From Bacillus sp. Y1 (GTDB taxonomy: Bacteria > Bacillota > Bacilli > Bacillales > Cytobacillaceae): a DNA stretch of 64,000 nt. A program made the position numbers and the translations under genes. The DNA lies in NCBI RefSeq assembly GCF_003586445.1, contig NZ_CP030028.1, positions 2,618,501 through 2,682,500 on the forward strand, written 5' to 3'. How positions within the stretch are numbered: the first letter of the stretch is position 1; each line of letters starts with the position of its first letter. A model generated the notes under the pieces. The model ran no database searches. It saw only the letters and a list, made by a program, of their open reading frames with translations, and was not told the DNA's origin. This document shows, piece after piece, positions 29,526 through 39,322 of this stretch.

Positions 29526-29606
29526 TTAGCTAGGGGTGCCTAAAGGCTGAGAGGAATCTTTCCAACCCTTGAACCTGATTTGGTTAGAACCAACGTAGGG
29601 AAGCAA
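29526..29606 (+). ncRNA. TPP riboswitch 2 (upstream of thiG)
   Basis: TAGGGGTGCC, AGGCTGAGAGG (CTGAGA at 29547-29552), CCCTTGAACCTGATTTGGTTAG and AACGTAGGGAAGC are the THI-box blocks in the right order. It controls the long thi/lux-like operon that starts at 29720. Confidence 0.97.
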
Positions 29607-29656
29607 TCATTTTGCATGAGCTGTAATACGAGGAAAAGCTCTATGTAAGAATGTGA

Positions 29657-29686
29657 AGACTTGCCAAGATTGGTAAGTCTTTTTTA
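29657..29686 (+). terminator. Riboswitch terminator before thiG
   Basis: GACTTGCCA (29658-29666) / TGGTAAGTC (29671-29679), followed by T6. Confidence 0.88.
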
Positions 29687-29719
29687 TTTATCCAAAACAA
29701 ACCAATAGGAGGAACTACT

Positions 29720-30490
29720 ATGACCGACTTATTAACGATTGGAAATACGCAGCTACATAACCGACTACTAACAGGAACAGGCAAATTTTATAATCACAAG
29801 CTTATGAAAGAAGCACTAACGCAATCCGGTTCACAAGTTGTTACTGTCGCTTTAAGAAGAGTCGACCTGAATGCTACTGGTGAAGAGAACATTCTAGAAG
29901 ACATTCCGCAAAATATGATTTTGCTTCCGAATACGTCGGGAGCGAGAACCGCAGACGAAGCGGTTCGAATTGCCCGACTTGCAAGAGCAGCCGGTATGGG
30001 CAATTGGATTAAAATCGAAGTCATTTCCGACCAAAAGTACTTGCTTCCTGACAATTACGAAACGGCAAAGGCAACTGACATCCTAGCAAATGAAGGGTTT
30101 GTCGTTCTACCGTATATGAGTCCTGACTTAATGGCAGCAAAAGCGATGCAAAATGCTGGAGCAGCAGCCATCATGCCACTTGGATCTCCGATCGGTTCAA
30201 ATCGAGGAATTCGGACGAAGGAACTGATCCAAATTTTAATAGAAGAAATGGAGCTTCCAATCATTGTTGATGCAGGAATCGGAAAGCCATCTGAAGCAGC
30301 CGAAGCGATGGAAATGGGGGCAGCTGCTGTTCTGGTAAATACAGCCATTGCTACAGCTAAGGATCCCGTTGAAATGGCCATTGCCTTTGATCTAGCAGTC
30401 AAGGCTGGAAGGAAAGCCTACCTAAGTGGAGTAGGACCAACGACAACGACAGCACAAGCGTCATCCCCATTAACAGGATTTTTAGGGTAG
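29720..30490 (+). CDS. thiG: Thiazole synthase ThiG
   Basis: 256 residues. Condenses DXP, ThiS thiocarboxylate and dehydroglycine into the thiazole tautomer. Motifs: LLTGTGKF near the start, VTVALRRV, the Schiff-base Lys in NWIKIEVISD, IMPLGSPIGSNRGI and VDAGIGKPS. First gene of the second TPP operon; AGGAGG precedes the ATG. Confidence 0.96.
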   Translation: MTDLLTIGNTQLHNRLLTGTGKFYNHKLMKEALTQSGSQVVTVALRRVDLNATGEENILEDIPQNMILLPNTSGARTADEAVRIARLARAAGMGNWIKIEVISDQKYLLPDNYETAKATDILANEGFVVLPYMSPDLMAAKAMQNAGAAAIMPLGSPIGSNRGIRTKELIQILIEEMELPIIVDAGIGKPSEAAEAMEMGAAAVLVNTAIATAKDPVEMAIAFDLAVKAGRKAYLSGVGPTTTTAQASSPLTGFLG

Positions 30491-30499
30491 GTGAGTGAA

Positions 30500-36659: not shown

Positions 36660-37436
36660 GTGAATCTCTCATTAACAGGAAGGGTATGTATTATCACGGG
36701 CTCAAGCCGAGGCATTGGAGCAGCATTTGCTGAAAGCTTCGCCTCCGAAGGGTGTCATGTAGTTATCAATTATTTAAAAAATGCAGAAAAGGCAGAAATA
36801 CTTGCGGAAAAATTAAAAAAAGAATACGGAGTGGACTGTCTAGCAATTCAAGCGGATGTTACGAATGAAAACGATGTAAAAAGATTGATTAGCTTGGTAA
36901 TTGAAGAGTTTGATCGGATCGACATTGTAGTTAATAATGCCCTCCATGGATACCTCTTTGATCCTACAGAGAGAAAATGGGCATGGGAAGTAGAGTGGAA
37001 TGATTATCAAAAACAAATCGATGGTTCGTTAAAGGGGACCTATCTCCTGAGTAAATATGCGATACCGCATATGAAAGATATGAACTTCGGTCGAATTATT
37101 AATATGACAACCAATTTATTGTATCGCCCGGTTGTACCTTACCATGACTATAATACAGCCAAGGGAGGAGTCATGACCTTTTCTCAAAACTTAGCCGCCG
37201 ATATAGGAAGGTTTGGTATTACCGTTAATTGTATTGCTCCAGGGCTAGTGTACCCGACAGAAGCAAGTAAACGAACAAAGGAAGAAGTGAAATCAGTCAT
37301 TCTTGCTGAGACACCCCTAGGGAGAATTGCCCGACCTGAAGATATTACTGGAACGGCACTTTATTTAGCTAGCAATTGGGCACGATTTGTTACCGGTCAA
37401 ACCATCATCGTTGACGGTGGATATACGATGAAATAA
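36660..37436 (+). CDS. Short-chain dehydrogenase/reductase
   Basis: 258 residues, GTG start 11 bases after the binding-protein gene. Cofactor motif TGSSRGIG, NNA in IVVNNALHGY, catalytic YxxxK as YNTAK, and C-terminal GQTIIVDGGYTMK. The usual catalytic Ser, 13 residues before the Tyr, is replaced by Thr. An insertion-like segment (DPTERKWAWEVEWNDYQK) gives it a special substrate pocket. Annotated by similarity it would be a 3-oxoacyl-ACP reductase-like protein. Within this operon it could reduce the aldehyde made by the LuxC-like enzyme to an alcohol (inference). Confidence 0.88.
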   Translation: MNLSLTGRVCIITGSSRGIGAAFAESFASEGCHVVINYLKNAEKAEILAEKLKKEYGVDCLAIQADVTNENDVKRLISLVIEEFDRIDIVVNNALHGYLFDPTERKWAWEVEWNDYQKQIDGSLKGTYLLSKYAIPHMKDMNFGRIINMTTNLLYRPVVPYHDYNTAKGGVMTFSQNLAADIGRFGITVNCIAPGLVYPTEASKRTKEEVKSVILAETPLGRIARPEDITGTALYLASNWARFVTGQTIIVDGGYTMK

Positions 37437-37443
37437 GGAGCGT

Positions 37444-38058
37444 ATGATGAAAAAAGAATTGCATGTCATTTCAACAGGACAGCAAGAAAAAGAAGATATG
37501 ATCAAAATTGCCCGAAACATTCACTCGTATGTGGATTGGATTCATTTACGAGAGAATCATCGGTCACCAGAAGAAATTCTTCACTTCATTCAAGGCATGA
37601 AAGAAGCTGATATCCCCCTTTCAAAAGTGATACTAAATGGATCATCAAGTATAGCGTTAGCTGGAGGAGTAGGTGGGATTCAGCTTTCCCATAGAGGCGA
37701 AGATGTATTAATGGTAAAAAAGCATTATCCGATGTTACGAGTCGGATGCTCCGTACATTCGCTCAGTGAAGCATTGGAAAAAGAACAAAGGGGTGCCGAT
37801 TTCTTACTATTTGGTCATGTGTACGAAAGTACTTCTAAGCCTGGACTCCGTCCTCGTGGTCTGTATGCTTTACAAGAAATCACTGCCTATGTAGCTATTC
37901 CTGTCATTGCAATCGGCGGGATGACCCCTTCTAATGTAAAGGACGTACTTACGGCAGGTGCTAGTGGAGTGGCTGTCTTATCGGGTATTTTTAGATCGGA
38001 TGATCCAGTAAGAGCTGCCATCAATTATCATAAGGAAATTGAGGTGATTGGAAGTTGA
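37444..38058 (+). CDS. tenI: Thiazole tautomerase TenI
   Basis: 204 residues, ThiE-like TIM barrel but of the TenI type: LHVISTGQQ, YVDWIHLRE, GGIQLSHRGED, the catalytic-type His in LLFGHVYESTSKPGL, and IPVIAIGGMTPSNV. It aromatises the thiazole product of ThiG. ThiE is separately encoded at 28045, which supports the non-synthase role. It overlaps the thiS start by 4 bases (TTGA). Confidence 0.9.
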   Translation: MMKKELHVISTGQQEKEDMIKIARNIHSYVDWIHLRENHRSPEEILHFIQGMKEADIPLSKVILNGSSSIALAGGVGGIQLSHRGEDVLMVKKHYPMLRVGCSVHSLSEALEKEQRGADFLLFGHVYESTSKPGLRPRGLYALQEITAYVAIPVIAIGGMTPSNVKDVLTAGASGVAVLSGIFRSDDPVRAAINYHKEIEVIGS

Positions 38059-39278
38059 CTATTTACGTTAATGGAAAAGAAACATTGTTAGGAACTGGAA
38101 CAAATACAATCATGACACTAATTGAATCTTACGAGCTGAATCCAATGGTTGTCATTGTTGAACGAAACAAAGGCATCGTTGCAAAAGATAGCTATGACTC
38201 TACCATACTTGAACATGGTGATCACATTGAACTCGTACATTTTGTTGGGGAGGTTGATTCTTTGAACGACCGCTACTCGAGACAGGAGCTTTTTTCACCA
38301 ATAGGGAAAGAAGGTCAAAAACAAATACAGCAATCACACGCATTAATTATCGGCGCAGGCGCATTGGGAACAGCACTTGCTGAATCTCTCACAAGAGCAG
38401 GGATAGGAAAACTGACCATTGTCGATCGCGATTACGTCGAATGGAGCAATCTTCAACGCCAACAGCTATATAGCGAATCAGACGCTCGTGATCGGATCCC
38501 AAAGGCTGTGGCAGCAAAAAAACGGCTGCAGAATATCAATTCTGATGTTGAAGTGGCTTCACATGTTATGGATGTAAGCATTGAAGAGATGGAGCAGTTA
38601 ATTGCAGGAGTTGATCTTATTTTAGATGCAACTGATAATTTTGACACACGACTGCTCATCAATGATATGTCACAAAAAGCGAACATTCCATGGATTTATG
38701 GAGCATGTGTGGGGAGCTATGGGTTATCTCTTACCATTATCCCTGGAAAAACACCATGCTTGCAATGCTTGTTAGATAGTATTCCTCTAGGTGGGATGAC
38801 CTGTGACACAGCAGGTATCATATCACCCGCAGTTCAAATCGTTGTTGCACACCAAGTAACAGAAGCACTCAAGCTTCTTACTGGAAATCTAGCAGCACTT
38901 AGAGGTTCCCTTTATTCATTTGATTTGTGGCTGAATTCATCGTCATCGATTTCAGTAAAAAAAATAAAAAAAGATGATTGTCCGTCTTGTGGAAAGACTC
39001 CAAGCTATCCGTATTTAGATAAAACCAACTCAACAAAAACAGCAGTGCTATGCGGAAGAAATACCGTACAAATTCGACCAGCGACCAACACAACGTTAAA
39101 TCTTGAAACACTAGCTGATCGATTAAAACCTTATGGTCAAGTGAGTAAAAACCATTATTTACTGTCACTGACTAAGGGAGAACACCGACTTGTTTTCTTT
39201 ACAGATGGACGTGTGCTTATTCATGGAACAAAGGATATTGCAGAAGCAAAAAAGCTGTACTATCAGTTTGTAGGATAA
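38055..39278 (+). CDS. thiS-thiF: ThiS-ThiF joined frame (sulfur carrier plus its adenylyltransferase)
   Basis: 407 codons as read. Residues 1-65 are ThiS (TIYVNGKET...HIELVHFVG), TTG start. Residues about 72-407 are ThiF: nucleotide motif IIGAGALGTALAE, Arg finger NLQRQQ, zinc Cys pairs PCLQC and CPSCG, Cys in GMTCDTAG, and the C-terminal extension usual in Bacillus ThiF. ThiS must end in Gly-Gly to be adenylated. Here the frame reads VGEV instead, but one more G in the run 38247-38250 would give VGGG and a TGA stop at 38255-38257. ThiF would then start at the TTG at 38262 behind GGGGAGG. So the fusion is probably due to a one-base indel, real or technical. Confidence 0.85.
   Translation: MTIYVNGKETLLGTGTNTIMTLIESYELNPMVVIVERNKGIVAKDSYDSTILEHGDHIELVHFVGEVDSLNDRYSRQELFSPIGKEGQKQIQQSHALIIGAGALGTALAESLTRAGIGKLTIVDRDYVEWSNLQRQQLYSESDARDRIPKAVAAKKRLQNINSDVEVASHVMDVSIEEMEQLIAGVDLILDATDNFDTRLLINDMSQKANIPWIYGACVGSYGLSLTIIPGKTPCLQCLLDSIPLGGMTCDTAGIISPAVQIVVAHQVTEALKLLTGNLAALRGSLYSFDLWLNSSSSISVKKIKKDDCPSCGKTPSYPYLDKTNSTKTAVLCGRNTVQIRPATNTTLNLETLADRLKPYGQVSKNHYLLSLTKGEHRLVFFTDGRVLIHGTKDIAEAKKLYYQFVG
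38247..38264 (+). other. Likely frameshift site at the thiS/thiF junction
   Basis: G4 run followed by AGGTTGA. With five G residues the thiS end would read Val-Gly-Gly-Gly-stop. The same G-rich bases would serve as the thiF ribosome binding site, and TTG at 38262 as its start. Confidence 0.75.
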
Positions 39279-39322
39279 AAGGAGGGGTCCTGGTTATTAG
39301 AACAGGCCCTCTCCAAAAGAAT
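39279..39322 (+). terminator. Terminator of the thi/lux-like operon
   Basis: GGAGGGGTCCTGGTT... / AACAGGCCCTCTCC stem right after the thiF stop. A T tract is not obvious on the plus strand. Confidence 0.5.

Follow-up and report, generated by a model that had tools for sequence, protein, structure and literature searches.

A LuxE-LuxC-SDR gene module behind TPP riboswitches: a probable reductive salvage route for an oxidised thiamin fragment

Why do homologues of the fatty acid reductase of luminous bacteria stand in an operon for vitamin B1? This question is raised by a 64,000-nucleotide stretch of Bacillus sp. Y1 DNA (contig NZ_CP030028.1, positions 2,618,501 to 2,682,500; hereafter the window), which is part of a 5.03-Mb single-contig genome of a Robertmurraya-like member of the Bacillaceae. 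Its luxE-like and luxC-like genes, together with an ATP-binding cassette (ABC) transporter and a short-chain dehydrogenase/reductase (SDR), sit between thiG-thiH and tenI-thiS/F behind a thiamin pyrophosphate (TPP) riboswitch. Judging from sequence, it is likely that these genes are repressed by TPP and together salvage an oxidised, i.e. carboxylated, thiamin fragment by reducing it. With them, the cell can probably recover a discarded, oxidised form of one vitamin half as a building block. Thiamin acetic acid, 4-methylthiazole-5-acetic acid and a pyrimidine carboxylic acid are thiamin catabolites; a literature search for these three acids in that role gave no useful paper among the matches listed.

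The module operon extends from 29522 to 39278 on the plus strand. Its TPP aptamer (29522..29618) scores 68.2 bits with Rfam RF00059 (gathering score 54.3) and 72.5 bits with our own model R1, although the window aptamer itself was among the sequences used to build R1. An intrinsic-terminator-like hairpin with a T tail follows at 29655..29682 (plus strand, 12 pairs); it is the probable expression platform because of its position after the aptamer, as the scan found 12 sites in total versus 9.6 expected in shuffled sequences. The genes, all on the plus strand, are thiG (29720..30490; PF05690, 356.7 bits), thiH (30491..31615; TIGR02351, 519.7 bits, cut-off 380), the luxE-like gene for the putative acid-activating enzyme (31629..32696; PF04443, 104.5 bits, cut-off 24.9), the luxC-like gene for the putative thioester reductase (32687..34120; PF05893, 343.3 bits), those of the ABC ATPase (34095..34886; PF00005, with a later ATG possible at 34134), the ABC permease (34883..35650; PF00528) and a substrate-binding lipoprotein of the NMT1/SsuA type (35647..36648; PF09084, 157.5 bits), the SDR gene, encoding the proposed aldehyde reductase (36660..37436; PF13561), tenI for thiazole tautomerase (37444..38058; NF005819, 236 bits, below the cut-off of 251) and a thiS-thiF reading frame (38055..39278; TIGR01683 at residues 3-65, NF009123 at residues 71-407). 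Open reading frames and family scans agree with a preliminary description of this DNA in gene order, strand and families, with intergenic gaps of at most 13 nt, several gene overlaps and one TPP riboswitch ahead of the whole operon.

The putative catalytic residues of the enzymes are well conserved. Cys340 of LuxE (AKGCSLAV) was aligned with the GCS motif (QKGCSL) of Photobacterium LuxE 7xc6_E, whose cysteine we take to be the acyl-accepting residue, and is kept in 39/39 LuxE proteins of one alignment and in 21/22 rows of the loci set. Likewise, Cys287 of LuxC was aligned with the DQQAC motif of Photobacterium LuxC 7xc6_A and is kept in all 21 rows of the loci set that reach this site. Both cysteines had been named beforehand and both hold up in these alignments. 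In the SDR, Y164 and K168 are invariant in 21 alignment rows. The window LuxC is the only one over the family cut-off in the genome. Against the equivalog models of the luminescence enzymes, LuxE reached 88.3 bits with NF052244 (long-chain-fatty-acid-protein ligase, cut-off 550) and LuxC 120.5 bits with NF052251 (long-chain-fatty-acyl reductase, cut-off 750), both below the cut-off. An AlphaFold2 (AF2) model of LuxE with a mean predicted local distance difference test (pLDDT) of 89.3 suggests a PaaK-like fold, the nearest match being phenylacetyl-adenylate PaaK.

From the gene content, the riboswitch sequences and the conserved residues we infer repression by TPP, the individual enzymatic steps and the type of substrate. 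When TPP is scarce, the riboswitch would permit transcription of the operon, and the ABC transporter, or an NCS2 permease in other species, would import a small heterocyclic carboxylic acid. LuxE would adenylate the acid and load it on Cys340 as a thioester. LuxC would then take the acyl group on Cys287 and reduce it to the aldehyde, which the SDR would reduce to a primary alcohol. Finally, a kinase (ThiM or ThiD) could phosphorylate the alcohol and ThiE could couple it.

The association with a TPP riboswitch was found far beyond the window (loci and genomes are given our own L and G labels). Model R1 matched 41/42 module sources, window included; the 22 riboswitches used to build it come from these loci and the window and therefore match by construction. 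The one source without a match is L121, an 8.4-kb contig that starts inside thiF and has the operon head outside it. The gene neighbourhood, on whose conservation the preliminary description had made its interpretation depend, is thus conserved. In 39/41 loci a script placed the riboswitch ahead of luxE and in the same orientation; at L085 the two overlap by 48 nt if the longest luxE frame is taken, and the R1 match at L049 is weak (25.4 bits). Independent Rfam matches at or above the gathering score were obtained for the window, L036, L037, L038, L044, L046, L048, L051-L061, L084-L086, L122, L126-L129 and L131. Rfam matched L047 and L050 below the gathering score, gave nothing for L049 at E 0.1 and nothing for L130 and L121 at the gathering score, and R1 was the sole TPP search for L035, L045, L118-L120, L123-L125 and L132-L134. 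By comparison, there was no TPP match in any of 24 loci with a more distant LuxE, which rules out TPP linkage as a generic property of LuxE. A chance insertion in a single genome is ruled out by the recurrence across loci; chance is excluded since 41/42 module sources match versus 0/24 LuxE loci without the module. Moreover, in 13 loci from two phyla (L047, L049, L050, L051, L084, L086 and L128-L134) no recognised gene stands between the riboswitch and luxE, and the predicted TPP control therefore belongs to the module and not to thiG.

Copies of the module occur elsewhere in Bacillota and on plasmids from Alphaproteobacteria, Gammaproteobacteria and lactobacilli. Among 201 relatives, 27 had a LuxE match, and the module is present in the 20 with E < 1e-80, our own genome among them, with the contig of G059 stopping inside luxC. 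The window LuxE is 79-89% identical to the LuxE of two Robertmurraya korlensis records. In the remaining seven relatives (E 2.9e-9 to 4e-21) LuxE belongs to other operons without a TPP match. Within a set covering the phylum, 17/398 genomes matched LuxE at E <= 1e-30, our own and three others at E < 1e-160; the module is present at L084-L086 and absent at the loci of the other 13 matching genomes. The family of the Paenibacillus locus L037 contributed matches in 10/104 genomes. Of 48 plasmid records matching LuxE, 27 were read as module by an identity of at least 35% (Pantoea 13, Azospirillum 9, lactobacilli 2, Priestia 1, Niallia 1, Pseudomonas 1), and nine of these were examined as loci. Wherever the contig extends far enough, luxE, luxC and the SDR gene stay adjacent. 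These loci are not independent, since L035, L044, L045 and the window belong to one genus, L052-L057 to another, L126 and L127 share the same protein accessions and L036 is the same place as L045. Besides, 1733 clusters match the window LuxE at E <= 1e-30, not all of them of this module.

Several side observations concern the distribution. On a 10.3-kb Lactiplantibacillus plasmid (L126) and a 21-kb Levilactobacillus plasmid (L127), NCS2-luxE-luxC-SDR with the same accessions is preceded by a TPP riboswitch and has a toxin-antitoxin pair and an integrase nearby, probably reflecting a recent transfer between lactobacilli. On the Pseudomonas silvicola megaplasmid (L131), luxE and luxC are broken into several frames and the TPP riboswitch is retained; at L085 the lipoprotein is split over two frames. 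In L087-L092 from other Bacillota (e.g. L087:9134-12031), a LuxE domain follows a long N-terminal part, which by eye resembles a B12-binding radical SAM protein, and no TPP match was found there.

Two types of transport accompany the three enzymes, namely the ABC system with its NMT1-type lipoprotein or an NCS2 permease (PF00860), with neither in the operons of Pantoea, L053 and G324. The best NCBIfam hits of the NCS2 protein are xanthine/uracil permeases, the closest being a xanthine permease whose cut-off it does not reach, and a plasmid search with this protein at E 1e-60 gave five records. When the three enzymes were placed in one tree (40 rows, i.e. loci with all three, leaving out L049, L131 and the duplicate L036), the transporter types were intermixed, with L121 and L119 (NCS2) branching below a Paenibacillus-family group that has ABC systems (support 0.997 and 0.976); deep branches are weak. 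The lipoprotein had been taken for a ThiY-type binding protein. It matches 3ix1 (E 1.1e-7) and 4nmy (E 3.2e-15) weakly and is 26% identical to a separate NMT1 protein of the genome (L003), which is the closer ThiY-like match (E 3.3e-37 to 3ix1, 1.5e-112 to thiamin-bound 4nmy). By sequence comparison the module lipoprotein is a distinct paralogue and not an orthologue of ThiY, so that this assignment was not upheld. We also considered the binding protein as a means of choosing between a thiazole and a pyrimidine substrate and abandoned this, as the nearest folds to its AF2 model (pLDDT 90.1) include both FAMP (formylaminopyrimidine)-binding ThiY (3ix1) and the thiamin-bound protein (4nmy).

The surrounding thiamin genes vary. 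An operon of thiazole genes, as described for the window, surrounds the module in the window genus, where thiG-thiH and tenI-thiSF are the neighbours, and in two Paenibacillus-family loci, L122, where tenI-thiO-thiS-thiG-thiF-thiD-thiE-NCS2-luxE-luxC-SDR lies behind one riboswitch, and L121, with thiF before the module and thiD-thiE after the SDR gene. As a general description this setting is too narrow, for elsewhere the module occurs alone or with thiM, thiW or thiD-thiE. Genes thiM-thiD-thiE belong to the same or an adjacent TPP unit in L046, L048, L124 and L125 and are divergent in L086. Tandem TPP riboswitches precede thiW-NCS2-luxE-luxC-SDR in L052, L054-L057, L060 and L061, and L053 also has two, before thiW-luxE-luxC-SDR without a permease.

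Some results weigh against a salvage function. The preliminary description had expected the module to co-occur with a lack of thiC. In the window's family, ThiC is missing from 8/20 module genomes versus 37/57 others, and ThiG from 1/20 versus 28/57 (Fisher p 0.0003, kinship uncorrected), where the 57 are the first genomes without a close LuxE match, hence not random and some with a distant LuxE, and incomplete G002 is excluded. The expected association was not supported and, since thiG is lost less often and thiC not more often in module genomes, plain substitution for a lost thiamin branch does not explain the module. Besides, L037 has a serine in the place of Cys340, and 'long-chain fatty acid--CoA ligase' is the name of these LuxE proteins in many database records, though such a name comes from the family. 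The NCS2 permease family also serves purines: a Paracoccus NCS2 permease with 40% identity adjoins an 8-oxoguanine deaminase.

Which acid would be reduced? We tentatively put first the conversion of 4-methylthiazole-5-acetate to hydroxyethylthiazole (HET), to be phosphorylated by ThiM, while giving it somewhat less than an even chance. After the SDR gene, four Paenibacillus-family genomes carry thiM (L037, L038, L118 and L120), and one of them, G671 (L120, on a 4.7-Mb contig), has ThiC and lacks ThiG. ThiW (PF09512), named as the HET transporter in PMC6593275, is encoded on the same transcript in ten loci of three genera. In addition, PaaK, the nearest fold match in the LuxE model, activates an arylacetate, which would be consistent with such a substrate. 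ThiM was found in 23/23 tested module genomes, but it is nearly universal anyway (52/57 others at E < 1e-50; Fisher p 0.31); in a search for ThiM restricted to plasmids, no Azospirillum appeared in the best 60 of 201 records. Moreover, 19/20 module genomes of the window's family retain thiG, and we know of no NCS2 permease for a thiazole.

The other candidate is the pyrimidine half. Reduction of 4-amino-2-methylpyrimidine-5-carboxylate to hydroxymethylpyrimidine (HMP), with ThiD as the kinase, is possible, if doubtful. The xanthine/uracil permease-like NCS2 protein as alternative transporter argues for it, as do the 13/33 module genomes without ThiC, 11 of them with ThiG. Among these, G613 (L122) carries the module inside its thiazole-thiD-thiE operon, and thiD-thiE follows the SDR gene in L121. 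ThiC is lacking in 8/14 NCS2-type versus 3/16 ABC-type genomes (Fisher p 0.057, kinship uncorrected), where five of the eight are from one genus and ABC-type denotes genomes whose ABC genes were seen. However, it is thiM and not thiD that follows the SDR gene in the four Paenibacillus-family operons, ThiW shares the transcript in three genera, and the window genome already has a TPP-controlled ThiC and a ThiY-like ABC system. Genomes without the module also show a similar split of single-branch losses, with 33 lacking only ThiC versus 3 lacking only ThiG, compared to 11 versus 2 among module genomes. ThiG is absent from 4/33 module genomes, namely G671, G324 and the fragmented assemblies G059 and G600, in which the absence is doubtful, the module contig of G600 beginning inside thiF. 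In the Paenibacillus family, ThiC is missing from 4/10 module genomes versus 28/70 others and ThiG from 2/10 versus 7/70 (kinship uncorrected). In these occurrence counts G651, with a partial ThiC, was scored as lacking it, and G618, with a split ThiC, as having it. Deciding between thiazole and pyrimidine by the occurrence of thiC and thiG was tried and proved indecisive. As a whole, the preliminary interpretation stands for the LuxE-LuxC-SDR reductive module with its transporter, as far as sequence can support it, for the TPP riboswitch and for the conserved neighbourhood, while the link to thiC loss and the ThiY type found no support, and the data do not separate the two substrates it had offered.

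It is improbable that the module instead regenerates thiamin from thiamin acetic acid: the ABC system can be replaced by a permease of a nucleobase-transporting family, thiM in the operon would be without a role, and nothing else points to the intact vitamin. Least probable of all is a fatty or other aldehyde made by enzymes merely located in a thiamin operon. The named members of the LuxE and LuxC families do act on long-chain fatty acids, but these proteins score far under the equivalog cut-offs, and often no thiamin gene separates the riboswitch from luxE.

Reductive salvage of a thiamin fragment would combine features of several known systems. Both subunits of the LuxE-LuxC fatty acid reductase of luminous bacteria (7xc6) are homologous to the module proteins and share the two cysteines. 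Unlike that enzyme, the module has a TPP riboswitch, its own transporter and an SDR, scores far under the cut-offs of the equivalog models, and would act on a heterocyclic acid to give an alcohol. Similarly, the ThiXYZ/ThiY system, which with YlmB and TenA salvages FAMP from base-degraded thiamin, works by uptake through a TPP-riboswitch ABC system whose binding protein has the NMT1/THI5 fold; in contrast, the module employs a distinct paralogue and, as proposed, reduction in place of deformylation and hydrolysis. No TenA or YlmB was found in the window operon or in the nine neighbours scanned, which were the places searched. In several lineages the module shares operons with ThiM and ThiW, the components of HET salvage, to which it adds three enzymes that could convert an acid to an alcohol. 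CytX and other nucleobase-type permeases occur in TPP regulons. The module permease resembles CytX, described as a HMP transporter in PMC6593275, in that a nucleobase-transporter family was recruited to a TPP regulon; unlike CytX it is an NCS2 (xanthine permease-like) protein and is coupled to LuxE-LuxC-SDR. Carboxythiazole (cHET) is a thiamin precursor (PMC5899164) and thus a case of an environmental vitamer that is a thiazole with a carboxyl group. This carboxyl group is on C2 and must be lost, not reduced, with the hydroxyethyl side chain kept, unlike in the acid proposed here.

Each protein family and the salvage of thiamin pieces are already known; what appears to be new is the proposed TPP-riboswitch acid-reducing module with a LuxE-LuxC relay. 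Among the matches listed in our literature search, titles and abstract beginnings, mostly of papers outside subscription, mentioned no LuxE or LuxC under TPP control. If the proposed function is true, many proteins that at present often bear the name of fatty-acid ligases would receive a function, and the LuxE-LuxC thioester relay would extend from luminescence to cofactor metabolism. Bacteria would have an added route to regain vitamin B1 from oxidised waste, and predictions of B1 auxotrophy and exchange would overlook a vitamer. We lean slightly towards a wider view in which oxidised thiamin halves form an environmental vitamer pool for many soil, plant and food bacteria, accessible by means of a mobile TPP-repressed LuxE-LuxC-SDR core that may have switched its acid with the transporter, taking a thiazole with the ABC system and a pyrimidine with NCS2.

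The host genome has five TPP riboswitches. Apart from that of the module operon, they precede thiM-thiE-thiD, the genes for ThiC and ThiT, and a set for a ThiY-like binding protein, a thiamine-binding-type protein and ABC parts. The first of these operons adjoins the module operon on the same plus strand, in agreement with the earlier statement that thiM is encoded just upstream. It comprises its own TPP aptamer (27009..27121; RF00059, 82.8 bits), a terminator-like hairpin from the scan (27147-27169), thiM for hydroxyethylthiazole kinase (27216..28031; PF02110 match G000:C1:2645740-2646468, E 6e-90) and two open reading frames that, judging from their sequences, are probably thiE (28045..28680) and thiD (28701..29516). 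This ThiM would consume the module product if the substrate is a thiazole.

At the distal end of the module operon, thiS and thiF had been listed as thiS-thiF, and in the window they do form a single frame (38055-39278), in which the ThiS part, unlike that of L122, does not end in Gly-Gly. The fusion is absent from the congeneric loci L035, L044 and L045, where thiF starts its own frame or occupies another frame. Unfused thiF copies thus exist, and the junction in the window is likely to reflect a frameshift, a sequencing error or a recent change. Two other loci have unusual neighbours. In L086, a protein with AIRS domains and ThiN (L086:12826-14379) follows the SDR, and neither a full-length ThiG nor a ThiC was matched in the genome, G324. 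In L118, the gene for a PdxA family protein (L118:13694-14695) immediately precedes the module's TPP riboswitch on the same strand. Elsewhere in the window, a Guanidine-I riboswitch on the minus strand (7609-7706, 84.7 bits) lies close to a PreQ1 riboswitch on the plus strand (7850-7892, 46 bits).

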